64,000 nt of DNA from Oscillospiraceae bacterium (GCA_009776305.1 WRLY01000002.1:62001-126000); one strand, 5' to 3'. Counted from the stretch's first letter, positions 5,769 to 31,989 are shown. Program-made: numbers and translations. Notes: generated by a model not told the origin, from the letters alone.

Positions 5769-6143
5769 CTATACTTTTTTTAATATCAGTCCCGCTAAAA
5801 ACATTCCCAGCACGACGGCGGACAGACTTAACGCCAAATTCAATAAAACATTTAACCCGCATAACAAATATCTGCCGTCGCTGAATAAATTCACGGTTTC
5901 AAGGCTGAAAGCGGAAAAAGTGCTCAATCCGCCGAGTAAGCCGGTTACAAAAAACAGTTTGGTACGCGGTGAAAAAACACCGAGACCAATGATAAAACCG
6001 ATTGCGCTTCCCGCAATAACGTTTGAAAGTAATGTACCGATAGGGAATTCAATTCCCAAATAGACAGTTACTTTAGTAAGTGCGAACCGTAAGCATGAAC
6101 CGATAAAGCCGCCCATTCCCACAAATAAAAAATCTATAATCAT
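5769..6143 (-). CDS. crcB: CrcB/Fluc fluoride ion channel
   Basis: This is a 124-aa membrane protein with four hydrophobic segments. The Fluc family forms dual-topology dimeric channels that export fluoride passively. The family motifs are visible: GGFIGSCLRFAL at the N-terminus (GxxGSxxR) and GGLSTFSAFSLE near residues 91-102 with the pore-lining Thr/Ser and Phe residues. Only one copy is seen here, so it may act as a homodimer; a partner elsewhere is possible. I looked upstream for a fluoride riboswitch and did not find its conserved sequence, although a hairpin lies between it and the upstream GH43 gene. Confidence 0.92.
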   Translation of the reverse strand: MIIDFLFVGMGGFIGSCLRFALTKVTVYLGIEFPIGTLLSNVIAGSAIGFIIGLGVFSPRTKLFFVTGLLGGLSTFSAFSLETVNLFSDGRYLLCGLNVLLNLALSLSAVVLGMFLAGLILKKV

Positions 6144-6174
6144 ATTTTCACCGCCCTTTCAGGAATATTAATTG

Positions 6175-6209
6175 TTTCCCCGCGTTTGATTTCATCAAAC
6201 GCGGGGAAA
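6175..6209. terminator. strong hairpin between the GH43 and crcB genes
   Basis: A perfect 16-bp stem pairs TTTCCCCGCGTTTGAT with ATCAAACGCGGGGAAA around a 3-base loop. It sits just after the GH43 stop on the minus strand. The U-tract is poor (AAACAAT follows), so termination may be partial or the hairpin may protect the transcript end. Confidence 0.6.
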
Positions 6210-6219
6210 ATTTTTAATT

Positions 6220-7209
6220 TTAATCATCATAAGGTTTCATAGTCTGAATCGTGCCGTCATCATTATATTTAATTTCTCTGAACATAATACAACGCAGAGG
6301 AGTAGCACCGCCGGACAGGGAACTGTCGTGATAAAATAAATACCACTTACCCTTGAACTCAACAATTGACTGATGGGTCGTCCAACCGATAACCGGCTCT
6401 AAAATCCTGCCGCCGTAGGTGAAAGGTCCTTTCGGGCTGTCGCTTATGGCATAGCAAAGGAAATGGGTGTCACCTGTGGAATAGGACAGATAATACTTGC
6501 CGTTGTATTTATGCACCCAAGGCGCTTCAAAAAACCTTCTGTCAGTATCGCCCGCTTTTATGAAACTGCCGTCTTTATCAAGCATTTTGCTTTCTTTAAG
6601 CGGCTCTTTTAAAGTCAGCATATCATCGTTCATCTCGGCAATAAGTACCCCAAGCGCAGGCTGGTCCCCCGAAGGGCTGTCAGTTCCCGCTTCGGGATTA
6701 AATGTACCGGTCTGCCATTTTTCAAGCTGTCCGCCCCAAAGTCCGCCGACATACATATAAGCTCTGCCGTCGTCGTCAATAAAAACTGCGGGGTCGATGC
6801 TAAAAGTACCGGGAATGTAATTCGGCTCAGGTTTGAAAGGTCCTGAGGGTTTGTCGCTTGTGGCGGCACCTATGCGGAAAATGCCTTCCTTATCCTTAGC
6901 AGGGAAGTAGAAGTAGTATTTGCCATTTTTATAAGCGGCGTCGGGAGCCCACATCTGCTCGCTCGCCCACGGAACGTCTTTTATGTGGATAGCCTCCCCG
7001 TGGTCGATACAAGGCGCGTCTATATCGTCCATAGATAAGACGTGATAATCCTCCATTTTGAAATGGTCGCCGGAACCGTCGTCAGGTTTATCGTTCCCAA
7101 GGTCATGGGAGGGATAGATGTAAAGCTTGCCTTCAAAGACGTGCGCCGAGGGGTCGGCGGTATAAATATGCGTAACTAAAGGGGTTTTGGGCTTAGAGTT
7201 CTTTTCCAT
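6220..7209 (-). CDS. glycoside hydrolase family 43 (alpha-arabinofuranosidase/beta-xylosidase type)
   Basis: This is a 329-aa five-bladed beta-propeller glycosidase that should cut arabinose or xylose residues from hemicellulose fragments by inversion. The GH43 catalytic set is visible: general base Asp19 in TADPSAHVF, the pKa-modulating Asp in SIDPAVFIDDDG near residue 138, and the acid Glu in RRFFEAPWVHKYNGKYY near 229. There is no signal peptide and no carbohydrate-binding module, so it probably acts in the cytoplasm on imported oligosaccharides. No sugar transporter or regulator is adjacent. It lies upstream of crcB with a hairpin between. Confidence 0.9.
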   Translation of the reverse strand: MEKNSKPKTPLVTHIYTADPSAHVFEGKLYIYPSHDLGNDKPDDGSGDHFKMEDYHVLSMDDIDAPCIDHGEAIHIKDVPWASEQMWAPDAAYKNGKYYFYFPAKDKEGIFRIGAATSDKPSGPFKPEPNYIPGTFSIDPAVFIDDDGRAYMYVGGLWGGQLEKWQTGTFNPEAGTDSPSGDQPALGVLIAEMNDDMLTLKEPLKESKMLDKDGSFIKAGDTDRRFFEAPWVHKYNGKYYLSYSTGDTHFLCYAISDSPKGPFTYGGRILEPVIGWTTHQSIVEFKGKWYLFYHDSSLSGGATPLRCIMFREIKYNDDGTIQTMKPYDD

Positions 7210-7266
7210 AGCACTTCCTCCGTTATGATTTTATAAATTTTATTGTACCATAATAAAGCCGTAAAG

Positions 7267-7872
7267 TCAAACATGTTTTAGGAAAACTTTTCTTTTAACA
7301 AAAAGGTTTATTTTTTCAATTTCTCTGCAATTTTCACCGTCAAAGCTCATTTTAACCGCCCACGGCATTAAATCGACAATTGCCATGAAATCTTTATATC
7401 CGTATGTATTGTCATAATAATTAATAATTGTTGATAAAGCTGTGGCGTGAGTGCCTATTGCTATATTTTTGCCGTTATATTTTGCTAAAGCTTGTCTTAG
7501 AGCGGCAATATTTCGGATTTGAACCTCCGATAAGCTTTCGCCGCCGTATAATTTATAGTCAAAATCAGCCCACTGCCGTTCAATTAAAGTAAAAAAATCG
7601 GGCTGGCTTAACCATTCGTCTCCCCATTTGTGTTCTTTAAAATTTTCGATTATTTCTGTTTTAAGCTTGTTTCTCTGTGCGAAATCCGACACAGTATCCA
7701 CTGCCCGCCTGAAGGGGCTTGAAAGCACGGCATTAATACTCTTATCGCTTAAAAATTCTGTTACAAAACGGCAATCGGCAAGTCCTTTTTGGGTTAGGGG
7801 GCGGGCGACTTCGTCGCGGACGGAATAGTCGGACTCGGCGTGACGGATAAAATATACTGTTGTTAATTGCAT
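7267..7872 (-). CDS. histidine phosphatase superfamily protein
   Basis: This is a 201-aa phosphoglycerate-mutase-like phosphatase. The RHG-type motif appears as FIRHAESDY near residues 9-17, with His11 as the expected phospho-acceptor. The second catalytic His is in GTHATALS near 145, and the supporting Arg (SSPFRRAVDT) and Glu (GGESLSEV) are present. The substrate may be a phosphosugar, an alpha-ribazole-type phosphate or another small phosphate ester; the sequence does not say. The ATG at 7872 has a GGAGGGG site and lies 25 bases after trmD, so it is probably transcribed with rimM-trmD. Confidence 0.87.
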   Translation of the reverse strand: MQLTTVYFIRHAESDYSVRDEVARPLTQKGLADCRFVTEFLSDKSINAVLSSPFRRAVDTVSDFAQRNKLKTEIIENFKEHKWGDEWLSQPDFFTLIERQWADFDYKLYGGESLSEVQIRNIAALRQALAKYNGKNIAIGTHATALSTIINYYDNTYGYKDFMAIVDLMPWAVKMSFDGENCREIEKINLFVKRKVFLKHV

Positions 7873-7897
7873 TTTCCCCTCCGTTAAAAAGAATCTC

Positions 7898-8578
7898 TTA
7901 TTTGTTATCTGTTAATAAATCCGGTCTTTTCTCCTCTGTAACTTTAAGGCTTTGCTCTTTTTTCCATTTTTCAATATTAGCGTGATGCCCTGAAATAAGC
8001 ACTTCAGGGACTTTTTCCCCGCGCCAGACTTCGGGGCGGGTGTACTGCGGGTATTCTAAAAGTCCGTTATAATGACTTTCTTCGGTGAAAGCGTCCTCGT
8101 TCGGCAAAACGCCGTCCTGAAACCTTGCCACAGCATCAGTCAGAATCAGCGCGGGCAATTCCCCGCCTGTGACGACGTAATCCCCTATTGAAATTTCCTC
8201 AAAGCTTAATTGGTCCAAAACCCGCCTGTCTACCCCCTCGTAATGCCCGCAAAGAATAATCAGTCTTTCTTCTTTTGCAAGCTCTTTTACAAGGCTTTGA
8301 TTGAGGACTTTCCCTTGCGGCGACATGAAAATCAGGCGGGGGTTTTCATTCCCCGCTACGCTTACTGTACAATCATAAACAGGTTGCGACTGCATAACCA
8401 TACCCGTACCGCCACCGTAAGCCTTATCGTCCACACGGCGGTGCTTATCAGTAGTATAATCGCGGATATTATGGCAGTTTATGTCAAGGAAACCGGCTTT
8501 CCGCGCCCGTCCGATTATACTTGCACTTAAATAATTTTCGCACATTTCAGGGAAAAGGGTTAATATGTCGATTTTCAT
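7898..8578 (-). CDS. trmD: tRNA (guanine37-N1)-methyltransferase
   Basis: TrmD, 226 aa, methylates G37 of tRNAs with S-adenosylmethionine and prevents +1 frameshifting. The SPOUT trefoil-knot motifs are clear: [21 protein letters not shown] and [20 protein letters not shown]. The start is the ATG at 8578 ([12 protein letters not shown]), the standard N-terminus, preceded by GGTGAT. rimM is upstream, as in the usual rpsP-rimM-trmD-rplS operon, but the two ribosomal protein genes are missing here; a phosphatase gene follows instead. The leader before this start is a weak relative of the repeated leader seen before phoU and others. Confidence 0.96.
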
Positions 8579-8667
8579 GTTTATCACCATGCCTTTCCGA
8601 ACAAACGTGCTATGAAAGTACATTTTCCCAATTACCGAGGATTTACTTTCAAACTTTTAACATTATC

Positions 8668-8702
8668 AGAGCTGTCCGCCGACTTTGTTCACGGACAGCT
8701 CT
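8668..8702 (-). terminator. hairpin at the rimM stop codon (attenuator-like)
   Basis: An 11-bp perfect stem (AGAGCTGTCCG with CGGACAGCTCT) overlaps the rimM stop codon. No T-run follows, so it may stabilise the rimM message or reduce read-through into trmD rather than end transcription. Confidence 0.5.
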
Positions 8703-9204
8703 ATTCAAATAAACCGTCAAGCGGTTTTATTAAAATTTTCCTTTCGCCTAAGTCAACATCTATCAAAACCTCGGGGATTGACGGGAAAAGCAGTTGTTTT
8801 CCCTCATCCGTTCGTATTGAATAAACATCGGTGGGGGCGTTTTGCAGTATTTCTTCCACAGCACCGTATTTGATGCCGCTGTCGGCGTCGAAAACCTCTA
8901 AGCCGATTAAATCTTTTATGAACCACACATTTTGGTCTAATTCAACGTCGCCGCGGTCAATATAAATCAGCTTCCCCGTAAGTTTCTGTGCAAGTTCAAC
9001 AGTATCTACGCCGGGTAGTCCTATGATGAGCATATTTTTGCTTAACCTGCAGGACGTAAGCTTTACCGGCATTTTTTCCTCGCCGAGGTATAAAACGTCA
9101 AACTGTTCAGGCTCATAAGGGTCGTCGCAGTAATATTTCGCTCGCATTTCCCCTTTGAGACCGTGCGGCTTTGTGATTTCGAGAATTTCAAGATATTTTT
9201 CCAT
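8701..9204 (-). CDS. rimM: 16S rRNA processing/30S assembly factor RimM
   Basis: RimM, 167 aa, helps assemble the 30S head by binding ribosomal protein S19. The N-terminal RimM domain (EILEITKPHGLKGEMRAK) and the C-terminal PRC-barrel (NVWFIKDLIGLEVFDADSG through EVLIDVDLGERKILIKPLDG, given here as two segments) are intact. It is the first gene of a rimM-trmD-phosphatase unit and has its own promoter, diverging from the ybjQ-type gene. In many bacteria rpsP stands before rimM; it is absent here. Confidence 0.95.
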   Translation of the reverse strand: MEKYLEILEITKPHGLKGEMRAKYYCDDPYEPEQFDVLYLGEEKMPVKLTSCRLSKNMLIIGLPGVDTVELAQKLTGKLIYIDRGDVELDQNVWFIKDLIGLEVFDADSGIKYGAVEEILQNAPTDVYSIRTDEGKQLLFPSIPEVLIDVDLGERKILIKPLDGLFE

Positions 9205-9224
9205 TTTTTATTACCTCAAGTATC

Positions 9225-9254
9225 ATTTTAACATTTTATAACCTGCAAAGTCAA
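9225..9254 (-). promoter_or_regulatory. rimM-trmD promoter
   Basis: On the minus strand TTGACT (9254-9249) and TAAAAT (9230-9225) have an 18-base spacer. The start codon follows 20 bases later. Confidence 0.6.
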
Positions 9255-9258
9255 GTCA

Positions 9259-9287
9259 TTGACATTTAGCGAATATAATTGTATAAT
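9259..9287 (+). promoter_or_regulatory. promoter of the YbjQ-family gene
   Basis: TTGACA, 17-base spacer, TATAAT: a consensus sigma-A promoter 35 bases before the start codon, diverging from the rimM promoter. Confidence 0.85.
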
Positions 9288-9322
9288 TAAAAGAAATAAA
9301 TCGCGAAAAGGAGAAGTTCGGC

Positions 9323-9634
9323 ATGATATTAGTAAATACTGATTTTATCACCGGCAGAAATTTACATACCTTAGGTTTGGTAAAAGGCAGCGTTGTTCAG
9401 TCGAAACATGTGGGAAAGGACATAATGGCGGGATTTAAAACCCTTGTCGGCGGCGAAATCAAAGGCTATACCGAAATGATGAACGAGGCAAGAAATATTG
9501 CCACGGGCAGAATGGTAGGGGAGGCGCAGCAAATGGGCGCCGACGGCATTATAAATCTGCGCTATGTTTCAGCGGAAATTATGCAGGGATGCGCCGAGGT
9601 AATCGCTTACGGTACTGCTGTAAAATTTATTTAA
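9323..9634 (+). CDS. YbjQ/UPF0145 family protein
   Basis: This is a 103-aa protein of the YbjQ (DUF74) family, small beta-rich proteins that assemble into pentamers; some annotations call it a heavy-metal-binding domain. Family signatures are LGLVKGSVVQSKHVGKD, the glycine-rich turn TLVGGEIKGY and GADGIINLRY. The function is unsettled. AAGGAG precedes the ATG, a consensus promoter drives it and a strong terminator follows, so it is monocistronic and probably well expressed. Confidence 0.88.
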   Translation: MILVNTDFITGRNLHTLGLVKGSVVQSKHVGKDIMAGFKTLVGGEIKGYTEMMNEARNIATGRMVGEAQQMGADGIINLRYVSAEIMQGCAEVIAYGTAVKFI

Positions 9635-9636
9635 TA

Positions 9637-9670
9637 AATACCGCCGCCGACTTGAAACAGCGGCGGTATT
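9637..9670 (+). terminator. intrinsic terminator of the YbjQ-family gene
   Basis: An 11-bp stem pairs AATACCGCCGC with GCGGCGGTATT and is followed by TTCTGCTT. Confidence 0.8.
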
Positions 9671-9676
9671 TTCTGC

Positions 9677-9705
9677 TTGCAATTATAGCGTTTATATGCT
9701 ATAAT
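9677..9705 (+). promoter_or_regulatory. promoter of the hybrid sensor kinase
   Basis: TTGCAA, 17-base spacer, TATAAT, about 65 bases before the kinase start. Confidence 0.75.
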
Positions 9706-9769
9706 GTTTTAGTTAATATTTTAAATCCAAAATCAGCTATAGCAAAATTCCGCATGGGGAGGCTTGAAA

Positions 9770-12700
9770 ATGAAAAAAAACGGCAAATTAATCCGCAGAT
9801 TATTATACGCGGTAATTGCGGTAATATTGTTAAGTCTTTTTTCGGGTTGCGCGAATTATAATATAGCCGGTAATGCGGGGGAAACGCAATCCGAAAACTT
9901 TGCGGTCTTTACCTCATATCGTGATATTCCGGGCGTAACGGAGGAAGAAATAAACGCAATCGAGGCGCTTTTGGAGGAATACGATTATTTTGTCTACGCG
10001 ATGATGCCAAACATTGAGGCTTTTCTTGATAAAAACGGCGAAATCAGAGGTTATTCGGCGCTTTTATGCGAGTGGCTGACAGAAATTTTCGGGATTGAAT
10101 TTGTTCCCACCCACTTTGCCTGGAATGAATTAATGGAGGGTCTTGAAAACTACGAAATTGATTTTGCCGGCAACCTGACCGCCACCGATGAACGCCGTGA
10201 AGTTTTTTATATGACCGACCCGATTGCCCAGCGCACGGTTAAATATCTGCGCCTTACAGACAGTTCATCCCTCTCCGAAATCTCCCGAACACGCCTGCCT
10301 CGGTACGGATTGCTCGAGGGCTCGAGTACCATTGACAAGGTTTTTCTTTATGCCGCGCAGGAATTTGAGCCGGTTTATTTAGCCGAATACGCCGACGCCT
10401 ACGAGCTTTTAAAGTCGGGGGAAATTGACGCTCTTATATATGAAAGCTCTGCGGAGGCTATTTTCGGCGCTTACGACAATATTGTGACGTCGGATTTTTT
10501 GCCGCTGATTTTCACCCCTGTTTCTCTTGCGACCAAAAATCCTGAGCTTTCCCCTATTATTTCCGTTATGCAAAAAGCGCTGGATAACGGTATTATTTTT
10601 CATTTAAACGAGTTATACAATCAGGGTTATGCCGAATACATGCGCTACAGGCTTTCAATGCGGTTGACAGAGGAGGAGTCGGAGTACATAAAAAACAACC
10701 CCGTTATCTCCTTTGCGATAGAATATGATGATTATCCTGTAAGCTTTTACAGTATGCACTACAATGAATGGCAGGGAATCAGCATAGACGTAATAAAGGA
10801 AATCGAGATGCTTACGGGACTCGAATTTGTAACCTTACACGATGTGGATACCGGATGGACTGAACTGCTCAGAATGCTTGAAGACGGGGAGGTGCTTATA
10901 CTTTCCGAGCTTGTTCGGACAAAAGAGCGGGAGGAGAGCTTTTTATGGGCGGAATCCTCATTTTTCACCGACCAGTCGGCACTTTTATCTAAAACCGAGC
11001 ATCGCGATATAAATATAAACGACGTATATTCGGTCAAAGTTGGGCTGATTAAGGACAATGCTAACGCCGAAATGTTTCGGAGTTGGTTTCCCGACCACCA
11101 TAATGTAGTAGAATACGAAAGCAATCAAGCGGCTTTTGACGCGCTGAAACGCGACGAGGTTGACATGGTTATGAGCAGTAAAAGCAGCCTTTTGTATCTT
11201 ACGAATTATCAGGAGGTCACAGGTTATAAAGCCAATATCGTATTCAATAACAGCTTTGAATCCACCTTTGGATTTAATAAGGACGCGGAGATTTTACGTT
11301 CCATCGTTGACAAATCCCTTGATTTAATCGACGTCGAGGCTATTTCGGAACAGTGGCTGAGAAAAAATTACGATTACCGACTGAAAATGACAGAGGCGCA
11401 AAGACCGTGGGTAATCGGTGTGTGTTTTCTGCTTTTCTCCACTTCGGTTTTAATGTTTGCCTTATTTCAAAGAACCCGCAGGGAGGGAAAGCGTCTTGAC
11501 GATTTAGTTAAGGAGCGAAGCGAAACTATAGTTTCATTGTTTGAGGTAAATCCTCAAATCAATTTTCTTTTTAACAGCAAGTTCAAAGTAGTGGATTGTA
11601 ATTCGGTGGTTTGTAAGGTGATGGGGTTTGACACTAAGAAAGCCGCACTGAAAGGATTTGTTGAGCGCATTAATGAAAGTCAGCCGGATTTTCAGCTGGA
11701 CGGCAGTCCCGTTATATCGTTGTCCGAAAGGCTTGAGAGGGCTGTGGAAAACGGCTCGGAAAAATTTGAAGCCGAGCTCACGATAAATGATAATCTGCTG
11801 ACGTTTGACGTGTATCTTATAAAGATTCCTTATGAAGACAGCCATGCCGTGGTTGGCTATGCTTTTGATATAACCGATATACACAAAAGGGAAAAGGCGC
11901 TTTTACACGCACAGGAATTGAGCGAGTTGCAATTGCTCAAATTAGGCTTAATGATTAAAGCCACCAAAATCGGTTTGTGGGACATGGAGGTTGTAAATCA
12001 CGAGCTTTTAAATTTGTCCAACCCATTTATTTGGTCGCAGGAATTTCGTCAAATGCTCGGATTTAAGGACGAGTCGGATTTTCCGAATGTATTAAGTAGC
12101 TGGAGTGAACGTCTTCACCCCGATGATAAGGATAGGACGCTTGAATGTTTTAAAAAGCACTTGCTTGACAAAACAGGAAAAACACTTTATGATGTGGAGT
12201 ATAAGCTAAAAAAGAAAAACGGCAAATACGCCTATTTCCGCGCTTCCGGCGAAACCATTCGCGACGACAACGGTAACGCTGTCCGCGTCGCGGGTGCGCT
12301 CATGGATATAACCGAAACCAAGAATATGCTGCTCGAGACCGAAAAACAGCGTATTCAAGCCGAAGCCGCGAGTAAGGCAAAGGGCGACTTCCTCTCCATA
12401 ATGAGCCACGAAATGCGTACTCCGATGAACGCCATTATCGGCATGACGGTGATTGGCAAGAAAGCCGGAGAAATCGAACAGAAAAATTACGCCTTAAAAA
12501 AAATCGGGGACGCTTCGTCACATCTGTTGGGGGTTATAAACGACGTATTGGATATGGCAAAAATTGAGGCGGATAAATTAGAGCTTGCGCCTGTTGAATA
12601 CAGCTTTGAGAGAATGTTGCAAAAGACAATTTCTATTATTAACTTTCGGATAGATGAAAAACAGCAGATTTTTTCGGCAAAGGTTGACAATGACATACCG

Positions 12701-13921
12701 CATTTTATTATAGGTGACAGTCAGCGTTTGGCGCAGGTAATCGCAAACTTGTTATCAAATGCCGTAAAATTCACTCCCGAAGGGGGCAAAATCCGCCTTG
12801 AGGCGGATTTAGTCAGTGAAATTGACGGGGATTGTGAATTGCGTATACAAGTAATTGACAGCGGAATAGGCATAGACCCGTCGCAACAGCAGAGGCTCTT
12901 CCTTGCGTTTGAACAGGCAGACAGGGAGACCAGCCACAGATTCGGCGGCACGGGCTTGGGTTTGGTCATTTCAAAACGCATAATAGAACTTATGGGTGGA
13001 AATATTTTTGTGGAATCGGAAGTGGGCAAGGGGGCGCGGTTCTGCTTTACCGTAAAAGCGCGCCGTGGTGAAAAAAATGTCCGTTCACTGCTAACGCCTG
13101 ATGTTAATTGGGAAGACGTGAGGATTTTAGTAGCAGATAATACCGCGGAAGCCCGCAGTCAGTTTGAGGGAATTTTCAGCCGTCTCGGCTTAAAATGTGA
13201 CGTCACGTCCGATGGCGCTGAGGTTATTCGCATGATTGAAAAACATGGTAATTACGACATGTGCTTTATAGACAATAGTCTGCCCGACATTGACGGCGCC
13301 GAACTGGCAAAACAAATCAAATCGCTCTGTGCCGATGATAATGAGCCGACCGTGGCGGTTATCACCGCAGGGATGCAGTGGGAGCAAACCAAGACTCGGG
13401 CGGAAAGCGCGGAAGTTAATAAGTATCTGCCGAAACCTGTTTTTTCATTTATGATTATTGACGCTTTAAACGGATGCCTCACCCAATACTGTAGTCAGGA
13501 TAAGGACTATATCAATAACGACGGCGTGTTTGTAGGAAGACGAATGTTGCTTGCCGAGGACATAGAGATTAACCGGGAAATACTCACGCTACTTTTGGAG
13601 AATACCGGGATTATAATTGACTACGCCGAAAACGGCAGAGAAGCATTAGGCATGGTTACGGCGACTCCCGACAAGTATGACGTGGTGTTTATGGATGTGC
13701 AAATGCCTGTTATGGACGGTCTCGAAGCCACCCGCGAAATCCGCGCTTTACCGGAAATAACCGAAAGAGAGGGCGGCAGACTGCCAATCATAGCGCTTAC
13801 GGCGAATGTGTTTAAAGACGACATTGAAGCCTGCCTGGCGGCGGGCATGGACGACCACTTAGGCAAGCCGTTTGATGTTGATAAGGTGTTTGAGAAGTTG
13901 AGGAAGTTTTTGAAAACGTAA
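9770..13921 (+). CDS. hybrid sensor histidine kinase with two solute-binding domains
   Basis: This is a 1383-aa membrane kinase. In order: a signal segment ending LFSGC27 (lipobox-like), two extracellular SBP_bac_3-type domains (about 45-265 and 300-535), a transmembrane helix (about 545-565), two PAS domains (about 590-710 and 735-850), HisKA with His about 879 (SIMSHEMRTPMN), HATPase_c (GTGLGLVISKRIIELMGG) and two receiver domains. The receivers have acceptor Asp in FIDNSLPDIDG (about 1166) and FMDVQMPVMDG (about 1307). It thus resembles BvgS/EvgS-like phosphorelays but lacks a visible HPt domain, so a separate phosphotransfer protein is expected. The ATG at 9770 has GGGGAGG seven bases upstream. 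The ligand is unknown. Confidence 0.93.
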   Translation: MKKNGKLIRRLLYAVIAVILLSLFSGCANYNIAGNAGETQSENFAVFTSYRDIPGVTEEEINAIEALLEEYDYFVYAMMPNIEAFLDKNGEIRGYSALLCEWLTEIFGIEFVPTHFAWNELMEGLENYEIDFAGNLTATDERREVFYMTDPIAQRTVKYLRLTDSSSLSEISRTRLPRYGLLEGSSTIDKVFLYAAQEFEPVYLAEYADAYELLKSGEIDALIYESSAEAIFGAYDNIVTSDFLPLIFTPVSLATKNPELSPIISVMQKALDNGIIFHLNELYNQGYAEYMRYRLSMRLTEEESEYIKNNPVISFAIEYDDYPVSFYSMHYNEWQGISIDVIKEIEMLTGLEFVTLHDVDTGWTELLRMLEDGEVLILSELVRTKEREESFLWAESSFFTDQSALLSKTEHRDININDVYSVKVGLIKDNANAEMFRSWFPDHHNVVEYESNQAAFDALKRDEVDMVMSSKSSLLYLTNYQEVTGYKANIVFNNSFESTFGFNKDAEILRSIVDKSLDLIDVEAISEQWLRKNYDYRLKMTEAQRPWVIGVCFLLFSTSVLMFALFQRTRREGKRLDDLVKERSETIVSLFEVNPQINFLFNSKFKVVDCNSVVCKVMGFDTKKAALKGFVERINESQPDFQLDGSPVISLSERLERAVENGSEKFEAELTINDNLLTFDVYLIKIPYEDSHAVVGYAFDITDIHKREKALLHAQELSELQLLKLGLMIKATKIGLWDMEVVNHELLNLSNPFIWSQEFRQMLGFKDESDFPNVLSSWSERLHPDDKDRTLECFKKHLLDKTGKTLYDVEYKLKKKNGKYAYFRASGETIRDDNGNAVRVAGALMDITETKNMLLETEKQRIQAEAASKAKGDFLSIMSHEMRTPMNAIIGMTVIGKKAGEIEQKNYALKKIGDASSHLLGVINDVLDMAKIEADKLELAPVEYSFERMLQKTISIINFRIDEKQQIFSAKVDNDIPHFIIGDSQRLAQVIANLLSNAVKFTPEGGKIRLEADLVSEIDGDCELRIQVIDSGIGIDPSQQQRLFLAFEQADRETSHRFGGTGLGLVISKRIIELMGGNIFVESEVGKGARFCFTVKARRGEKNVRSLLTPDVNWEDVRILVADNTAEARSQFEGIFSRLGLKCDVTSDGAEVIRMIEKHGNYDMCFIDNSLPDIDGAELAKQIKSLCADDNEPTVAVITAGMQWEQTKTRAESAEVNKYLPKPVFSFMIIDALNGCLTQYCSQDKDYINNDGVFVGRRMLLAEDIEINREILTLLLENTGIIIDYAENGREALGMVTATPDKYDVVFMDVQMPVMDGLEATREIRALPEITEREGGRLPIIALTANVFKDDIEACLAAGMDDHLGKPFDVDKVFEKLRKFLKT

Positions 13922-13929
13922 AAAATATT

Positions 13930-14886
13930 TCACTCAAGTGCAATTCTAAGCGTTTCCGCGTTTTCCCTCATGAAATCAATATACCCCTTGCCGCTGTCGA
14001 TTTCCTCTTGCGTAACCGTATGGCAGGAATGTAAAAGCATAGGCAGAGCATCGGTTTCGCGGCTTATTGTATTAGCGGTCTTTTTATCAGAAAGCTCGCC
14101 GTAAAAGACGACGGGGATTTGCTCCCGCCTGATTTTTTCAATCAGGAACGCTATGGTCATGGCGCTCGGCTCGGATTCTTCCGAGCAACCTGGGAACGCC
14201 GCGTAATACTCAAGTCCGTAGCAGTCGGCAAGATAGCGGAAAGCAAAACGGTCGGCAAAAACAATGACGTTTCTTGAAGCGTTTGAAATTATCCCGGTAA
14301 AAGCGTTATCAAGTTCTTCAAGCTTTTTTATGTACTCTTCGGCGTTGTTTTTATAAAATTCCGCGTTTTCGGAATCCTTATCGCTTAAAGCGTCGGCAAT
14401 CGCCCGGGTCATTAAAACGGCGTTTGGGGGAGAAGTCCATATATGCTGGTCGAAATTATCGGAATTGTCGGCGCTTTCATGCTCGTGGTCATGCTCTTGC
14501 GTTTCCATGCCTTCAACAATTTCCTCTTCCAAAAGCGTTACGCTGTTCATCAGTCTTACACTTTTGACGTTTTCCTGCTCTGCCAAAATCTTCTCAACCC
14601 AACTGTCGTCCGCACCGCCTATGTAAAGGAAAACGTCACATTCCCTGATTCTGATTATGTCATGCGGGGTAGGCTCATAGGAGTGACTGTCGGCTGAAGA
14701 CGGTAGCAACAATGAAACATCAGCCCTGTCGCCGGCTATATTTTTGGCGAAGTCATATAGAGGGAAGACGGTGGCAATTACTTTTAATTTTCCGCTATTT
14801 TCCGAATACGCGCTGTCCGCACTGCAACCGGGGAGAATACATAACAGCAAAGCTATGATTGTAAAAACAGTTATTGAAGTTTTCAT
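13930..14886 (-). CDS. metal-binding lipoprotein, ZnuA/cluster A-I family
   Basis: This is a 318-aa solute-binding protein of the zinc/manganese ABC uptake class. It has a lipoprotein signal with lipobox LPGC21. The likely metal ligands are His in ADSHSYEPTPHD, His in DQHIWTSPPNA, and acidic residues in the C-terminal lobe. An acidic His-rich loop, QEHDHEHESAD, near residue 130-140 is typical of zinc-binding ZnuA. No permease or ATPase gene lies beside it, so it depends on components elsewhere. It converges on the kinase gene with only 8 bases between the stops and no obvious terminator. Its start is preceded by one copy of the repeated leader. Confidence 0.88.
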   Translation of the reverse strand: MKTSITVFTIIALLLCILPGCSADSAYSENSGKLKVIATVFPLYDFAKNIAGDRADVSLLLPSSADSHSYEPTPHDIIRIRECDVFLYIGGADDSWVEKILAEQENVKSVRLMNSVTLLEEEIVEGMETQEHDHEHESADNSDNFDQHIWTSPPNAVLMTRAIADALSDKDSENAEFYKNNAEEYIKKLEELDNAFTGIISNASRNVIVFADRFAFRYLADCYGLEYYAAFPGCSEESEPSAMTIAFLIEKIRREQIPVVFYGELSDKKTANTISRETDALPMLLHSCHTVTQEEIDSGKGYIDFMRENAETLRIALE

Positions 14887-25016: not shown

Positions 25017-25045
25017 TTGATTTATTATTATTTTTATGGTAGAAT
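25017..25045 (+). promoter_or_regulatory. promoter of the acyl-AMP ligase cluster
   Basis: TTGATT, 17-base spacer, TAGAAT, 39 bases before the ligase ATG. Confidence 0.65.
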
Positions 25046-25083: not shown

Positions 25084-26676
25084 ATGTCAACAAATTTAAA
25101 AGAGCTTTTGAGTGAAATCAAAGGCAAATACGGTGAAAAAACCGCATTCAGGTATAAAACGGGTAAAGACAGCATTAAAAGCGTTTCTTACAACGAATTC
25201 GTTGACCAGGTCGAGTCACTCGGAACAACCCTGATTTCTAAAGGGCTAAAGGACAAGCATATAGCCGTTTTAAGCGAGAACAGATATGAATGGATTGTTG
25301 CTTATTTAGCTGTAGCCGCAGGTACGGGCGTAGTGGTTCCTATTGACAGGGATTTGCCGGAAGAAGCTATTCATTATCTTTTAGAACAGGGCGACACCTG
25401 TGCGGTTTTATATTCCGAAACCTATGAGGAAATAATAAAAAGCTCCAAGGTTTCAAAAATAGAGTACTGCGTAAATTTTGATAAGAAAACAGACGAGGAC
25501 GGAAAGTACTTGTCTTATGAAAAAGCCTTAGACGGCGGAAGACAGCTTTTGGATTCGGGCGATACCGCTTTTGCCGACGCCTCTGTTGACACAGATAATA
25601 TGGCGTGTATCCTCTTTACTTCGGGAACTACCGGCTTTTCAAAGGGGGTAATGCTGACCCATAAAAACATCACAAGTAATATTTATGCGGCTACGGCTTT
25701 TGAGCAGTTCCGTGAGGACGAGGTTATGCTTTCGGTTCTGCCTTATCACCACGCTTTTGAATGTACTGTAGGGTTGCTTGCGTCTCTCGCTTTCGGCGCT
25801 ACGGTTTGTATTAACGACAGCCTTAAATATTTTTCCAAAAACCTTGCTTTGTTTAAGCCAACCGGAATGTTCTCAGTACCGGCGCTTGTCAACGCCATGT
25901 ACAAAAAAATGACTGACGCCGAGAAAAAAGTCGGAAAGCTTATTGCCAAGGTTGGGGTTAAAAAAGCTTTCGGCGGTCAGCTTAACCGTATTTTCAGCGG
26001 AAGTGCGCCGTTAAAGCCGGAACTTATTGAGGCGTTTAAGCGTTACGGTATAATGCTTTGTCAAGGGTACGGACTTACCGAAACCTCTCCCGTTGTAACG
26101 GCGACTCAGTACGATAAGTTAAATGACAAAAATATTAACAGCGTAGGTCAGGTTATTCCGGGTTGTGAAGTTAAGATAGTAGATGATGAAATCTGGGTCA
26201 AAGGTAATAACGTTATGAAAGGTTATTATAAAAACCCTGAAGCCACAGCCGAAGTGTTTGACGGAGAATGGTTTAAGACCGGAGACCTCGGGTATCTTGA
26301 TGAATACGGTTTCCTTTACATCAACGGCAGAAAAAAGAACGTCATAATAGCCAGCGGCGGCGAAAATGTTTACCCCGAGGAAATCGAGCAGTTCCTTTAC
26401 GGCATACCTCAAATTTTAGATGCAATGGTTTACGGCGGCGAAGGCGACGGCGATGTGCAGTCGGTGGTTACGGCAGTAATCTATCCCAACTATGAAATGC
26501 TGGAAAGAAAAAGCGACGAGGAAATCAAAAAAATCATTGACGCGGCAATTCAGGGCGTAAACCAAAAGCTTCCGCTTTATAAGCATATTCTTGTCACAAA
26601 AATCAGGAAGACAGAGTTTGAAAAAACCACCGCAAGAAAAATCAAGAGAAACCATGAAAATACGTTGGAAAAATAA
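25084..26676 (+). CDS. acyl-AMP ligase (long-chain fatty acyl synthetase family)
   Basis: This is a 530-aa ANL-superfamily enzyme that adenylates a carboxylic acid and passes it to a thiol. Motifs: LFTSGTTGFSKGVMLTHKN near residue 178-196, GYGLTETSP near 321, KTGDLGYLDEYGFLYINGR near 399-417, and the C-terminal catalytic Lys in TTARKIKRN. It is somewhat shorter than classical FadD. An acyl carrier protein gene begins 61 bases downstream, so the acceptor may be ACP rather than CoA. The chain length of the acid cannot be told. GGAGGAG precedes the ATG. Confidence 0.9.
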   Translation: MSTNLKELLSEIKGKYGEKTAFRYKTGKDSIKSVSYNEFVDQVESLGTTLISKGLKDKHIAVLSENRYEWIVAYLAVAAGTGVVVPIDRDLPEEAIHYLLEQGDTCAVLYSETYEEIIKSSKVSKIEYCVNFDKKTDEDGKYLSYEKALDGGRQLLDSGDTAFADASVDTDNMACILFTSGTTGFSKGVMLTHKNITSNIYAATAFEQFREDEVMLSVLPYHHAFECTVGLLASLAFGATVCINDSLKYFSKNLALFKPTGMFSVPALVNAMYKKMTDAEKKVGKLIAKVGVKKAFGGQLNRIFSGSAPLKPELIEAFKRYGIMLCQGYGLTETSPVVTATQYDKLNDKNINSVGQVIPGCEVKIVDDEIWVKGNNVMKGYYKNPEATAEVFDGEWFKTGDLGYLDEYGFLYINGRKKNVIIASGGENVYPEEIEQFLYGIPQILDAMVYGGEGDGDVQSVVTAVIYPNYEMLERKSDEEIKKIIDAAIQGVNQKLPLYKHILVTKIRKTEFEKTTARKIKRNHENTLEK

Positions 26677-26678
26677 TA

Positions 26679-26715
26679 CTTTGTGGGCGGGCGGCTTGCG
26701 CCGTCTGCCCCAAAG
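26679..26715 (+). promoter_or_regulatory. GC-rich hairpin between ligase and ACP genes
   Basis: GGGCGGGCGGC (26685-26695) pairs with GCCGTCTGCCC (26700-26710), extended by CTTTG/CAAAG outside a bulge. No T-run follows, so it is more likely a processing or expression-balancing structure than a terminator. Confidence 0.5.
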
Positions 26716-26737
26716 GTAATAATTTGGAGGGTGTAAA

Positions 26738-26962
26738 ATGCTTGAAAAAGTAATCGACATAATCTGCCGCAATGTTGATATTCCGAGGGAAAAAATAACA
26801 GGAGATACCAACCTGTTGACCGACCTCGGATTGCAGTCTATAGATTTTATAGACATGGTATGCGATTTTGAGGAAACCTTTGATGTAGAGGTACCTGAGC
26901 GCGATTTAAGGAAATTAGTTACGGTTAAGAGCATAGTAAGCTATATTGAAGACAATTCTTAA
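26738..26962 (+). CDS. acyl carrier protein
   Basis: This is a 74-aa free-standing carrier protein. The phosphopantetheine site is Ser34 in TDLGLQSIDFIDMV, a variant of the usual LGxDSL motif, within an acidic four-helix fold. It is separate from any fatty acid synthase operon and lies between an acyl-AMP ligase and an acyltransferase-like protein, so it is probably a dedicated carrier for this pathway. GGAGG lies before the ATG. Confidence 0.92.
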   Translation: MLEKVIDIICRNVDIPREKITGDTNLLTDLGLQSIDFIDMVCDFEETFDVEVPERDLRKLVTVKSIVSYIEDNS

Positions 26963-27091
26963 ATAATTTTTTAAGGGTTTACTTTAGAACCTGCAAGTTA
27001 CATAAGCGGGAAACTTTGAGTGCGCCGTTTTATAAGCAGGGGATTTAGACGCCGGCAGCTCGCCGATTAAACATTTGGGTGTGGTGACAGT

Positions 27092-29446
27092 ATGCGTATT
27101 TTAAAGGAATACTCCGCATTGGCGAACCCGTTCGTATTAACGGACGAGAACAGTGCAGTGCTTACTCTTACACGGGAGAATAATGAAAAAGCCGCCGGGT
27201 ACGTTGAAGAACGTACCCGCGATACCGATATTTGCGGCAAAACATTAATTTCGCTTAAAGTAACGGTCAACGACATATTTGACATTCTTGCCGAAAACGC
27301 GGCGGAAGGTGAGGAAGCAAGACTTGCCTGTACCTATCATAAGTATTATTACATGCTGGTGTTTGAATTTTCGGAATCGGCGTTGCCTTTGCATACGCTG
27401 AACAAAGCCATTAAAATTCTGAACACAGGACGTTCTTTGGGAACTGATGTACCTGATGAATCCGACCAATCTGTTGAGGTAGGTTTTATGGATTTGGTGC
27501 ATCTTGTCAACAGAATTGAATTATCTGTTGATAAGGTTTCGGGAAAAATGAGAATAACCATAATAAAGGAAAAACGTTACCCTGCCCCGGACATAAAGGG
27601 TGAACCGCCTTTATTGGGGAAAAGTTTCAAAATTTGTGAAGATTACAGTGCCGGTGATAATCGGATATTGCGGGATTTTTCAAAACGGCTCGCAAAAAAA
27701 TACGGCAAGAATATTGATAAGTTTCTGACTTGCCCGGAACTGCTTTCTGATAACCTTGCGGCGGACGAGCTTGAAATCATGCTTTTACAGGATGAAAACG
27801 GTAATTGCGGAGGCGGCGCGGCTTGGCAGAAAACATACGGCGTAACGGTTTTAATGGTGATTGCAATTTTTGTCGATGAGGAAAATCCGGAATACCAAAA
27901 TGCCAAGAACCTGCTTTTCGATAGGCTAAAACAGTTAGTTGAAATATCGAAAGTGAATTTTTTGATTTCGCAAATACGTCATTCTGAAATTATTTCCGAT
28001 TATTTTGATTCATGCGACGAAAAATATAATTATAAATTTTTATCAATAGAAAAAAAGGTTACGTCTTATATCAAGCCCGATTTAATTCCGCTGATTAAAA
28101 AGGCGTATAAAAGCTTTGAAATCAACCGCGAAGTGCGCCAGATTAATTCTAACTATACCTTTATAGAGCCTCATTCGGTTTTGACGGCTAAAGTGGACGC
28201 CGAAACCTCCGAAGCGGTTTTGTCGGTGATGTGGTTCGGCGACGACTTGAAGTCCAACATTATACGGCATGTAATCGCGTTGAAACGAATCGGTATTGAA
28301 AGCATTTATTTCAGACTCGATTTGGGCGTTTATGAAGAAATGGCAGTTTCGGATTTAGTGCAGGACTGCGGGTTTGAGGCAAAGTACCTTTGGCCTTACA
28401 GCAGTGATAGTGGCGATATAGTAATATTCTCTTATTATGAAAACGCTGTTTATGAAATGAAACCCTGCGTCATATCGCCTATAAATAAAGCTAATATAGA
28501 AAAAACGCCCGAATTGGTCAGAAAAGTTTACGGTGATAACTATCCGTCGCAATACCTTTACCGTCCCGAACAGCTTTGGGAGAAAATCCGCAAAAGACAG
28601 GTATATCCTTATATTGCCGTTGACGATGAGCAAAAGGCGGTAGGCTTGATTTCCTTTTTGAAGCTCGGGAGCAACCCTTATTTATTTGAAATAGGGCAGC
28701 TTATGGTTGACCCCGCTCACAGGGGAACAAACGTTGTAAACCAACTTATCGAGTACCTTTACAACACGGCGATTCAAAATCTTGACTTTGACGCGGTGCT
28801 TTCCGAAGCCGTGACAAATCATAAATTATCTCAGCGTTCTTGCGTGAACAGCGGTTTTTGTGATACCGCGCTTAAAGTTAATTTAATGTCGGAGGAAGCC
28901 TTTACGTTAGAAGAAGAAAAACGGCGCATAGGAAGAATGAGTTGTGTTGTTTCCTGTATTGAGCAGGCAGACGAAGGCTTTACGGTTTATTTGCCGGAAG
29001 AATACGCGGAGCAAATTAAATTCTGTTTTGAGGGCTTAAAGCCGCGCCGCTATGAAAGTGTTACCGCTTCCTCGGAATTAAGCGGTATAACCGAATATCG
29101 GCTTGACGACAGCGAGGCGGAAACCTCGCGCATGATAAATGTTACCATTTTCAATATCGGCACCGACCTTGATTCGGTACTGGAAAAGGTAGAAGAATAC
29201 GCGGTAAGCAAAGGAATAAAAACCATGATGATTAATATTCCTTTAAACACGGGTAATAATTCCGCCGCTGTTAAGCTTTTGAAATCACGGGGATTCTTTT
29301 TCGGCGGAATCATGCCGTTTTGGTTTCCTGAATCTGACGCGCTTTTAATGCAGAAACTTTATAACAGCGCGGTTAATTGGGACGGCATAAAGCTTTTCAG
29401 CCGTAAAATTAAAAAAATCGCTGAATTCATTAAACAGGACATGTAA
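27092..29446 (+). CDS. 784-aa protein with ATPase-like N-terminus and GNAT acyltransferase domain
   Basis: This is a large cytoplasmic protein. Residues about 1-165 resemble a degenerate RsbW-type HATPase (the stretch VNDIFDILAENAAEGEEA, then FMDLVHLVNRIELSVDKVSG), but the canonical Asn and glycine boxes are not clear. A GNAT core is visible near residues 500-600, with the acyl-CoA or acyl-carrier binding loop in GQLMVDPAHRGTNVVNQLIE. The flanking regions (about 330-480 and 640-760) look like further, diverged alpha/beta repeats. It starts 129 bases after the ACP gene, with GGTGTGGTGA upstream, and 28 bases precede the M20 gene. An acyl transfer using the neighbouring carrier is a plausible inference; the acceptor is unknown. 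Confidence 0.75.
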   Translation: MRILKEYSALANPFVLTDENSAVLTLTRENNEKAAGYVEERTRDTDICGKTLISLKVTVNDIFDILAENAAEGEEARLACTYHKYYYMLVFEFSESALPLHTLNKAIKILNTGRSLGTDVPDESDQSVEVGFMDLVHLVNRIELSVDKVSGKMRITIIKEKRYPAPDIKGEPPLLGKSFKICEDYSAGDNRILRDFSKRLAKKYGKNIDKFLTCPELLSDNLAADELEIMLLQDENGNCGGGAAWQKTYGVTVLMVIAIFVDEENPEYQNAKNLLFDRLKQLVEISKVNFLISQIRHSEIISDYFDSCDEKYNYKFLSIEKKVTSYIKPDLIPLIKKAYKSFEINREVRQINSNYTFIEPHSVLTAKVDAETSEAVLSVMWFGDDLKSNIIRHVIALKRIGIESIYFRLDLGVYEEMAVSDLVQDCGFEAKYLWPYSSDSGDIVIFSYYENAVYEMKPCVISPINKANIEKTPELVRKVYGDNYPSQYLYRPEQLWEKIRKRQVYPYIAVDDEQKAVGLISFLKLGSNPYLFEIGQLMVDPAHRGTNVVNQLIEYLYNTAIQNLDFDAVLSEAVTNHKLSQRSCVNSGFCDTALKVNLMSEEAFTLEEEKRRIGRMSCVVSCIEQADEGFTVYLPEEYAEQIKFCFEGLKPRRYESVTASSELSGITEYRLDDSEAETSRMINVTIFNIGTDLDSVLEKVEEYAVSKGIKTMMINIPLNTGNNSAAVKLLKSRGFFFGGIMPFWFPESDALLMQKLYNSAVNWDGIKLFSRKIKKIAEFIKQDM

Positions 29447-29474
29447 TCTTAAAAAGGCGGAAGTATAACTCATT

Positions 29475-30800
29475 ATGTACGATAAAGAAAAAGCGGCGAA
29501 AAACTTCAGCAAAATGTTGCAGTACAGGACAGTCGCAGGAAACAAGGCGGATTTTGTCGGATTCCGCGACGCTTTAAAAGAAATGTATCCGAATATAAAC
29601 AAAACTTGTAAGCTTGAATTAATAGGCGAAAAGGGTATAATGTATACCTGGAAGGGTCAAAATGAGCAAAATTCCGAAAAAACGGGAAATAAAAGCATAG
29701 TTTTAATGTCGCACTACGATGTAGTTCCTGCCGATAACGAAAAATGGAAGTATCCGCCTTTTTCAGGTGCACAGGCGGAAGGAAAAATATGGGGGCGCGG
29801 CGCTCTTGACACCAAAGGCACGCTCTGCGCCATAATGGAAAGCGTAGAGGCTCTAATTTCGCAGGGCTTCACTCCTAAAGCCGACATATATTTATGTTTC
29901 GGCGGGGACGAGGAGACGGCGGGAAACGGCGCAATTCAAATCGCGCGGCAACTCAAAATTAGAAACGTCAGACCTTATTTAGTCTTAGACGAGGGCGGAG
30001 CGGTCATTGACGGAAAGGTAATAGGGGTAAATCATCCCTGCGCCTTTGTCGGGATTGCCGAAAAGGGATATATGGACGTAGAATTTTTAACCTCGGGAAC
30101 AGGCGGTCATTCCTCCCTTACGGGGGCGCATAACCCGATTGTTACCATGTCGGAGGTTATAAAACGCTTAAACTCAAAGGTTTTTAAACCAAGGTTAAGC
30201 CGTCCCGCGAAAATCATGGTAGATGCCGCCTCTAAGCACAGCGGCTTTAAACTTGGGCTTTTACTCAGAAGTTATTTTATATGGGGAAAACTGTTCAGAA
30301 AATTTTTTATAAAAATTTTGCCGGAAATTGACGCTTTTACGAGAACCGTTGGAGCAATAACCCAAATTTCGGGCGGAAGTGCCGAAAATATTATTCCCGA
30401 GCAGGTCAGAGCCGTCGGAAATTTCAGAATCATAAACGGGAGCAGCGTAGCCGAAACCTTATCCGTTATAAAAAAAGCTTTGTCGGGAATCGACGTAAAG
30501 GTCAATTTAATTAGTGGGCTTGAACCCTCCGTAATATCAGACACAAGCGGTTACGGGTGGCAAACTTTAACAAACGCAGTTTCAGAAATTTGGCAGGGTA
30601 GCGTTATTATTCCTTATTTAATGATGGCTCGGAGCGATTCGCGCTCCTACGGAAACATATCTGAAAATATTTTCAGATTTACCCCCGTCACACTGACAAG
30701 GGACAAGCGGGTTTCCATTCACGGGGTAAACGAGAATATTTCAAAAGAAGGATTTTTCAGGATTATTGATTTTTATATTTGTTTAATCAGGGAAAATTAG
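29475..30800 (+). CDS. M20-family metallopeptidase, PM20D1/CPS1-like
   Basis: This is a 441-aa di-zinc hydrolase without signal peptide. Metal and catalytic residues are visible: His and Asp in MSHYDVVPAD, the bridging Asp in GRGALDTKGTL, the general base Glu in FGGDEETAGNG, Asp/Glu in LVLDEGGAV, and the last His in SIHGVNENI. The HYDVVPA..W..PPFSG..IWGRGALD pattern resembles the CPS1/PM20D1 branch, whose animal member makes and hydrolyses N-acyl amino acids. It may therefore act on an acylated amino acid made by the preceding genes, or simply be a dipeptidase. Confidence 0.87.
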   Translation: MYDKEKAAKNFSKMLQYRTVAGNKADFVGFRDALKEMYPNINKTCKLELIGEKGIMYTWKGQNEQNSEKTGNKSIVLMSHYDVVPADNEKWKYPPFSGAQAEGKIWGRGALDTKGTLCAIMESVEALISQGFTPKADIYLCFGGDEETAGNGAIQIARQLKIRNVRPYLVLDEGGAVIDGKVIGVNHPCAFVGIAEKGYMDVEFLTSGTGGHSSLTGAHNPIVTMSEVIKRLNSKVFKPRLSRPAKIMVDAASKHSGFKLGLLLRSYFIWGKLFRKFFIKILPEIDAFTRTVGAITQISGGSAENIIPEQVRAVGNFRIINGSSVAETLSVIKKALSGIDVKVNLISGLEPSVISDTSGYGWQTLTNAVSEIWQGSVIIPYLMMARSDSRSYGNISENIFRFTPVTLTRDKRVSIHGVNENISKEGFFRIIDFYICLIREN

Positions 30801-30816
30801 ACGGTATTTTATATTC

Positions 30817-30837
30817 GGGCGGCGGGTGAAGCCGCCC
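30817..30837 (+). terminator. GC-rich hairpin after the M20 gene
   Basis: GGGCGGC pairs with GCCGCCC around a 7-base loop and is followed after a few bases by a T-run (GAATTTTTTG). It is a probable terminator of the ligase-ACP-GNAT-M20 unit. Confidence 0.6.
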
Positions 30838-30876
30838 TTACGAATTTTTTGAGGTACTGAAAATAAGGAAATTTAA

Positions 30877-30905
30877 TTGACAATTTTGGTAAAAAATGTT
30901 ATAAT
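30877..30905 (+). promoter_or_regulatory. promoter of the YgjP-like metallopeptidase, leaderless
   Basis: TTGACA, 17-base spacer, TATAAT. The ATG at 30915 starts only 9 bases after the -10, so transcription would begin within a few bases of the start codon. Confidence 0.85.
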
Positions 30906-30914
30906 TATTAAAAT

Positions 30915-31589
30915 ATGATAAAATATACTTTAATCCGTTCAAAACGTAAAACGGTAGCGATTTACATTCGCGGCGGCGGGGTTGAAGTCCGCGCACCTTT
31001 AAACCTCCCTAAAAGCTATATAGACGACTTTGTGCTGTCAAAAGAAAAGTGGCTCGCAAAACAGCTCCAAGCCGAAAGGGAGCGGATTAACAGGCGGGTT
31101 GAATTTACTTTGGATTATGGCGCACTTCTAACCTGCCGAGGGAAAGCATATATAATCGACAAAAGTCAAAGCAAACACATCGGAGTAAGCGACAACTCAT
31201 TTTACATACCGCCGAATTTAACTTCCGAAGAAATCAAAGCTGCCTGTGTTAAAATTTATAAGATTATCGCCAAAAGCGATTTGGCTGAAAAAACGTTTAA
31301 GTTTGCTAATCAAATGTCGCTCAAGCTTAATGCCGTTAAAATTAACAGCGCCAAAACCCGCTGGGGAAGTTGCTCGTCTAAGAAAAATATTAATTTTTCG
31401 TGGTTTTTGATTATGGCGGAGGACGATGTAATTGATTATGTCGTAGTGCATGAATTGGCGCATTTAATTCACATGAATCATTCAAAGCGGTTTTGGGCGG
31501 TGGTGGAAAGCGTTCTGCCCGATTACCGCCAACGCAGGAAGAAGTTAAAAGAGTTTCAGCAAAAATTAAATACAGAGAACTGGGATTAA
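30915..31589 (+). CDS. YgjP/SprT-like zinc metallopeptidase (DUF45)
   Basis: This is a 224-aa protein with the metal site HELAHLIHMNHSKRFW near residues 178-193 (HExxH plus the distal NHSxxFW). Another family motif is AKTRWGSCSSKKNINFSW. Members are soluble peptidase-like proteins often found next to restriction or repair genes; their substrates are mostly unknown. There is no Shine-Dalgarno before the ATG and a consensus promoter lies right against it, so translation is probably from a leaderless mRNA. The thioesterase gene starts 13 bases after its stop. Confidence 0.87.
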   Translation: MIKYTLIRSKRKTVAIYIRGGGVEVRAPLNLPKSYIDDFVLSKEKWLAKQLQAERERINRRVEFTLDYGALLTCRGKAYIIDKSQSKHIGVSDNSFYIPPNLTSEEIKAACVKIYKIIAKSDLAEKTFKFANQMSLKLNAVKINSAKTRWGSCSSKKNINFSWFLIMAEDDVIDYVVVHELAHLIHMNHSKRFWAVVESVLPDYRQRRKKLKEFQQKLNTENWD

Positions 31590-31602
31590 AAAGTAAAAAT
31601 TT

Positions 31603-31989
31603 ATGAACCAAACAGCAATAGGAAAAACCGCAAGTGCAGACGCAACCGTAAACCAAGCCAATACCGCCGAGGCAGTTGGGAGCGGAAGTCTTGAGGTTTT
31701 CGCCACACCGATGATGTTGGCGTTAATGGAGAAAGCCGCCTGTGAGTGCCTCAAAGACGGGCTTGAAATAGGGGAAACTTCGGTAGGAACGTTTGTTAAT
31801 ATTTCACACACTGCCGCAAGTCCAATAGGCGCAAAAATAACCGCCACGGCTGTCGTAAAAAACATTTCCGGGCGGAAAATTGAATTTGAAATAACCGCGT
31901 TTGACCATTCAAGTCAAAAGGAAATCGGCAGAGGAGAGCATACGCGAATGGTTATTGATGAGAAAAGGTTTATGGAGAAACTGAAATAA
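31603..31989 (+). CDS. hotdog-fold thioesterase, FlK-like
   Basis: This is a 128-aa protein resembling the fluoroacetyl-CoA thioesterase (FlK) family: GSGSLEVFATPMMLALMEKAA, then GETSVGTFVNISHTAASPIG with the conserved His, and RGEHTRMVIDEKRFM (each shown as a short part). Most family members are general small acyl thioesterases, so fluoroacetate need not be the substrate. It follows the YgjP-like gene by 13 bases and has a weak ribosome binding site. Its closeness to the acyl-transfer cluster may be meaningful: it could release acyl groups from CoA or ACP. It converges with mutS2, 11 bases apart. Confidence 0.87.
   Translation: MNQTAIGKTASADATVNQANTAEAVGSGSLEVFATPMMLALMEKAACECLKDGLEIGETSVGTFVNISHTAASPIGAKITATAVVKNISGRKIEFEITAFDHSSQKEIGRGEHTRMVIDEKRFMEKLK

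Follow-up and report, generated by a model that had tools for sequence, protein, structure and literature searches.

What might a stand-alone acyl-activating ligase, a small acyl carrier protein (ACP), a GNAT-type protein and an M20-family hydrolase produce when they are encoded side by side? The question is raised by a stretch of 64,000 nucleotides from an Oscillospiraceae bacterium (GCA_009776305.1, WRLY01000002.1:62001-126000), referred to here as the window, which corresponds to contig C2:62001-126000 of a 1.54 Mb genome assembly that is 71% complete. An earlier note, made from the DNA alone, had suggested that these genes build and recycle an N-acylated amino acid or a similar lipid. Our analysis revealed that the four genes are a real conserved biosynthetic unit, for which we consider it probable that an N-acyl amide is made from an activated, presumably fatty, acid by way of the ACP and the GNAT protein, with hydrolysis by the M20 enzyme.

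A conserved four-gene cassette

Open reading frame and Pfam analysis placed the genes in tandem on the + strand, just as the earlier note had described them: an acyl-AMP ligase of the ANL superfamily (25084..26676, 530 residues; PF00501, 9.5e-77), a 74-residue ACP with phosphopantetheine Ser34 (26738..26962; PF00550, 2.2e-12), a 784-residue GNAT protein (27092..29446; PF00583, 2.2e-8), and a 441-residue M20-family amidohydrolase (29475..30800; PF01546, 4.5e-27, and PF07687). The intergenic gaps measure 61 bp (ligase/ACP), 129 bp (ACP/GNAT) and 28 bp (GNAT/M20), and no terminator-like site was found on the + strand in any of the three. The ligase gene is preceded by a weak sigma-70-like promoter (25017..25045, + strand; TTGATT-17-TAGAAT, 9/12 with an extended -10 TG), identified by consensus match only. 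The cassette ends with the M20 gene, since a perfect promoter lies after it and before the genes for a YgjP-type and then an FlK-like protein.

Searching the contigs of our genome collection with the whole 784-residue protein gave no match, and the GNAT core (residues 454-784) was used as the anchor; an alignment of this core then found eight loci in the collection, and among 71 same-genus genomes eight were strong carriers, the window's own genome included. Ligase, ACP, GNAT and M20 genes have identical order and strand in the window and in L009, L010, L003 (= L012), L013, L014, L015 and L051, with the M20 gene of L014 truncated by the contig end; at L016, the contig begins inside the cassette. 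With this anchor, the four genes are kept together, as the earlier note's proposal demanded, in no fewer than seven further genomes of Oscillospiraceae type. Close copies of the ligase (59-72% identity), the GNAT protein and the M20 enzyme (53-57%) share one identical set of 8 carriers among the 71 genomes, the next-best identities outside these carriers being 41% for the ligase and 35% for the M20 enzyme. Such co-occurrence is not a probability, as shared ancestry contributes to it; together with the recurring gene order it places the arrangement far beyond chance.

The cassette loci belong to metagenome-assembled genomes with the sample codes Th196, Nt197 and Emb289, which stand for the termites Termes hospes, Neocapritermes taracua and Embiratermes neotenicus (PMC7024585); no host could be traced for the codes Mx356 and Po218. 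Every carrier whose sample code could be traced is from a termite gut, and we infer the same source for the window. One further locus, L011, lies on a Treponema-binned contig, on which STAS, ligase, ACP, GNAT, MATE and SpoIIE genes stand in a row and no M20 match was found. Its composition agrees better with that of its Treponema genome (r 0.67) than with that of the Oscillospiraceae loci (0.35-0.50), so the idea of a misbinned Oscillospiraceae contig was rejected, and spread of the cassette across phyla, possibly by horizontal transfer, appears likely if unproven. At this locus (5560-14362), the ligase-ACP-GNAT genes are preceded by that of the STAS protein and followed by those of a MATE exporter that carries a HATPase domain at its C-terminus and of a phosphatase with the architecture Cache-HAMP-SpoIIE-HATPase.

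Proposed acyl activation and transfer

One of the two nearest precedents for such a gene set is found in the biosynthesis of SB-203208 (altemicidin), in which the adenylating enzyme SbzL, the carrier proteins SbzG/SbzK and the GNAT enzyme SbzI make an amide, and in which coenzyme A (CoA) does not replace the ACP (PMC6331615). In both systems, an adenylating enzyme, a carrier protein and a GNAT enzyme are encoded together; the Sbz proteins, however, belong to a Streptomyces antibiotic cluster without an M20 gene and use 2-sulfamoylacetate as the acid, and the likeness drawn here is one of gene set. By analogy, the cassette ligase would load the ACP and the GNAT protein would transfer the acyl group to an amine. 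Briefly, the ligase may convert a carboxylic acid into its acyl-AMP and pass the acyl group to the phosphopantetheine of the dedicated ACP; the acid would most likely be a fatty one, imported or recycled. The GNAT core would move the acyl group from the ACP to an amine on a small acceptor molecule, yielding an N-acyl amide and free holo-ACP. A cytosolic M20 enzyme would then hydrolyze, or reversibly form, N-acyl amino acids, and in this way control or recycle the product or dispose of wrong ones.

The nature of the acid is suggested by the ligase itself, for which the nearest NCBIfam model is the long-chain-fatty-acid--CoA ligase PRK06187 (292 bits, cut-off 476), with the amino-acid adenylation model scoring far lower (160 bits, cut-off 317). 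On these scores the substrate is probably a fatty acid, with no curated cut-off reached. The FDxS motif with its Asp is a feature of amino-acid adenylation domains; the ligase has LPYHHAFE at this position. Among its solved-structure relatives are malonyl-CoA synthetase, luciferases, and 4-coumarate and fatty-acyl ligases, which leaves room for small acids and for a different reading of the cassette: the ligase may load an amino acid or small acid, the product of the GNAT enzyme may be a small acyl amide or a peptide-like one, as with SbzI and SbzC, and the M20 protein may be a dipeptidase or amide hydrolase. The use of small acids in the biochemical ligase, ACP and GNAT precedent (PMC6331615) speaks for this proposal, as do the best-matching solved structures of the M20 enzyme, which are DapE, aminoacylase-1 and dipeptidases. 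Weighed against the higher score of the fatty acid ligase model and, for amino acids, the replaced FDxS motif, it is an unlikely alternative, if the strongest of those considered.

That the ACP and the GNAT protein work together is directly evidenced by gene fusion, the GNAT core carrying the ACP at its N-terminus in six loci (L003, L013, L014, L015, L016 and L051). The phosphopantetheine serine, which in the window lies in the context LGLQS34IDFIDM, is kept in 10/10 cassette ACPs. A second ACP is encoded on contig 3 of the window's genome, and this, together with the fusions in several relatives, supports the view of the cassette ACP as a dedicated carrier.

A single recognizable GNAT domain (residues 480-570; PF00583, 2.2e-8) is present in the 784-residue protein, and all ten cassette GNAT members match this family. 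The core (28451..29446), the proposed acyl-ACP:amine N-acyltransferase, resembles solved GNAT structures with a Foldseek E of ~1e-8, and an AlphaFold model of the L003 ACP-GNAT fusion (mean predicted local distance difference test score, pLDDT, 83.6) likewise matches solved GNATs; within the core lies a conserved C-terminal region similar in size to the GNAT part. Alignments revealed that H577, E533, Q581 and R544 are kept in 10/10 cassette GNATs, as is Cys584, which is replaced by Tyr (L053), Phe (L005-L008) or Ala (L004) in more distant relatives. This position, which we take to be that of the usual general-acid Tyr, precedes the GF-motif Gly by four residues; Cys584 may serve there as a general acid or carry the acyl group. 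An altered CoA-binding P-loop was considered as evidence of ACP use and dropped, its Asn also being present in paralogues without ligase or ACP neighbors.

The N-terminal extension of 453 residues (27092..28450) is confined, among cassette members, to the window, L009 and L010; it has no Pfam domain, and its AlphaFold model is poor. A condensation domain hidden in it was rejected, as no Pfam match was obtained, and so was a degenerate HATPase of the kind present in the L005-L008 relatives, for which the predicted elements look similar and profile comparison gave nothing. When compared with the GNAT core in view of a possible duplication, the extension was colinear over 231 columns at a probability of 0.8% with shallow profiles.

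More distant GNAT cores are accompanied by other adenylating enzymes, PaaK-like in L005-L008 and LuxE in L004. In L005-L008 and L102, HATPase-GNAT proteins are encoded directly upstream of or just after the PaaK-like enzymes, with MATE genes ahead in several; L004 has a LuxE acyl-protein synthetase in place of the PaaK-like enzyme. Still other cores, in Treponema and two same-genus loci, are flanked on one side by a MATE exporter and on the other by a SpoIIE phosphatase, STAS proteins being encoded there as well, and such MATE/GNAT/SpoIIE/STAS neighborhoods recur in L097-L105, L053 and L054 (Treponema, Oscillospiraceae), where no ligase was seen nearby. These neighbors suggest that in some hosts a small product is exported under partner-switch control. 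They also bear on the proposal that the GNAT enzyme belongs to a modification system and has a protein or envelope molecule as its acyl acceptor, the M20 protein being a deacylase or an unrelated scavenger: GNATs commonly acylate proteins, and the distant relatives adjoin SpoIIE phosphatase, STAS and HATPase signaling genes. The cassette, however, holds no conserved target gene, its conserved partner belongs to the small-molecule amidase family M20, and a MATE exporter follows the L011 cassette as would be expected for a small product, which together make such a modification system improbable.

The M20 hydrolase and the probable acceptor

The expected zinc-binding and catalytic residues H80, D82, D112, E146, E147, D172 and H416 are invariant in the eight full-length cassette M20 enzymes. 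No signal peptide is apparent at the start of the window protein, which should therefore be cytosolic and act on an intracellular product, a by-product or recycled material. The substrates of M20 acylases are N-acyl amino acids, which makes an amino acid the probable acceptor of the acyl group, a suggestion to which the M20 enzyme alone leads. The earlier proposal thus fits the gene set as far as N-acylation of an amine goes, its amino-acid part following from this one gene. Its comparison with PM20D1 is so far one of family resemblance, below curated cut-offs: the best NCBIfam model is PRK08262.1-4 (276 bits, cut-off 503), a group which we take to hold PM20D1. The M20 fold with its dimerization domain and the metal and catalytic residues are shared with PM20D1 and M20 aminoacylase-type hydrolases, whereas the 441-residue cassette enzyme differs in lacking an apparent signal peptide and in its NCBIfam scores below cut-off.

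A PM20D1-like enzyme working in the synthase direction would lead to yet another scheme, in which the M20 protein condenses and the GNAT protein performs some other step, such as shuttling acyl groups between CoA and ACP in the manner of polyketide synthase GNAT loading domains. GNAT-ACP neighbors do exist in polyketide loading modules. The ligase, however, already provides ATP-driven loading of the ACP, and L011 keeps ligase, ACP and GNAT without an M20 match, which implies that the M20 enzyme is dispensable and the GNAT protein is not; this scheme is accordingly the least plausible of those considered.

Several observations weigh against N-acyl amide formation by the GNAT protein followed by M20 hydrolysis. 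The GNAT members match general acetyltransferase models, whereas PF21926, the model for N-acyl amino acid synthases of the FeeM kind, gave a sub-threshold match to 1/10 of them (16.1 bits against a cut-off of 27); for PF13444, the sole match (1/10) had an E of 0.094, and none was above cut-off. FeeM has been cited as another acyl-ACP-using GNAT (PMC6331615). Synthases of the FeeM type (PF21926, PF13444) are likewise GNAT-fold acyltransferases and use acyl-ACP and an amino acid. The cassette core differs from these in three respects: it scores below the FeeM cut-off, a second region is conserved on its C-terminal side, and a ligase and an ACP of its own accompany it. The M20 enzyme scores under the cut-offs of all NCBIfam models shown, and a cytosolic hydrolase beside a synthase looks futile unless regulated. 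Finally, no phosphopantetheinyl transferase (PF01648) was found in the window's own genome, where, despite two ACPs, the gene is probably just missing from an assembly that is 71% complete.

Condensation-type counterparts and flanking genes

The other near precedent is provided by the fatty-acid-amide (FAA) clusters of human-gut Clostridia, for which PMC13142362 gives a layout of adenylating enzyme (A), ACP and condensation domain (C), exemplified by OaaA/OaaACP/OaaC of Coprococcus eutactus (Chang et al. 2021, via PMC13142362). A genus search with the window's ligase revealed a related ligase at 16 further places in 15 same-genus genomes, all without the GNAT cassette. At 14 of these places a condensation domain lies beside the ligase, mostly with an ACP between, one of the remaining two having an ACP only and the other lying at a contig end. 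Judged by gene content, these same-genus loci have the published FAA-cluster layout, and PF00668, PF00550 and PF00501 were confirmed by Pfam in condensation-type loci elsewhere in the class. No genome of the genus held both cassette types at the thresholds used. An alpha/beta hydrolase is encoded upstream at 6/16 places; the six belong to the fourteen condensation-domain cassettes (L110-L124), which have the same ligase family, and this link to a hydrolase may itself deserve study.

The window cassette and the clostridial FAA clusters, from the same bacterial class, have in common a stand-alone adenylating ligase, an ACP and a free-standing amide-forming enzyme. PF00668, found in the controls L080 and L087-L089, had no match in the window's cassette proteins. 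Since the defining condensation domain is absent, the cassette is not a member of the FAA clusters; as the genus uses their layout in other genomes, the GNAT protein, to which the ACP can be fused, appears to stand where the amide-forming condensation domain stands. An M20 hydrolase takes the place of the alpha/beta hydrolase seen with some condensation-type cassettes, and the ligases of the window type form a separate clade. In the first ligase tree, nine GNAT-type ligases formed one clade and condensation-type ligases another, each with 100/100 support. A second tree of 20 rows, with more condensation-type ligases and with support labels that may be shifted by rerooting, again separated the latter and grouped the GNAT-type with ordinary acyl ligases. 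The separate clades suggest that the two cassettes were probably assembled independently. In the open literature searched, no named ligase-ACP-GNAT-M20 pathway was found; to this extent the earlier note was right in knowing of none, although it had missed both the condensation-domain FAA clusters and SbzL/SbzG/SbzI.

The cassette can be viewed as a differently built counterpart of the signaling-lipid factories of human-gut bacteria. A bolder and decidedly tentative idea is that gut bacteria have two independently assembled kinds of lipid-amide factory, the cassette being the second: here a GNAT with the conserved Cys584 at the usual Tyr position, often fused to the ACP, replaces the condensation domain, a dedicated hydrolase acts on N-acyl amino acids, and the cassette takes the place of the condensation type in termite guts, its products acting on host or neighbors as proposed for the human-gut compounds. 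If the main reading, of N-acyl amide formation by the cassette, is right, insect-gut bacteria would make such amides by a route invisible to condensation-domain searches, and a single genus would contain two ways of forming them that exclude each other. That each synthase type is paired with a hydrolase of its own prompts a testable question, namely whether such signals are turned over in a controlled way. The cassettes would also provide candidates for the genes behind as yet unknown lipid amides of termite guts, and their three-protein systems and native ACP-GNAT fusions, being small and easy to express, would lend themselves to studies of how GNATs use acyl-ACP.

Downstream of the cassette, the earlier note had placed an FlK-like thioesterase behind a separate promoter. 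The promoter is indeed present as a perfect sigma-70-type consensus match (30877..30905; TTGACA-17-TATAAT, 12/12, with TG), but it precedes the gene of a YgjP-type metallopeptidase (30915-31589; PF01863, 2.6e-57), which lies between the M20 and FlK genes and had been omitted. YgjP and FlK had no match at any other cassette locus examined, and on this ground and that of their own promoter both were rejected as members of the cassette. The YgjP gene, a spacer of 13 bp and the gene of the FlK-like protein (128 residues; PF22636, 3e-33) form a separate two-gene unit at 30877-31989.
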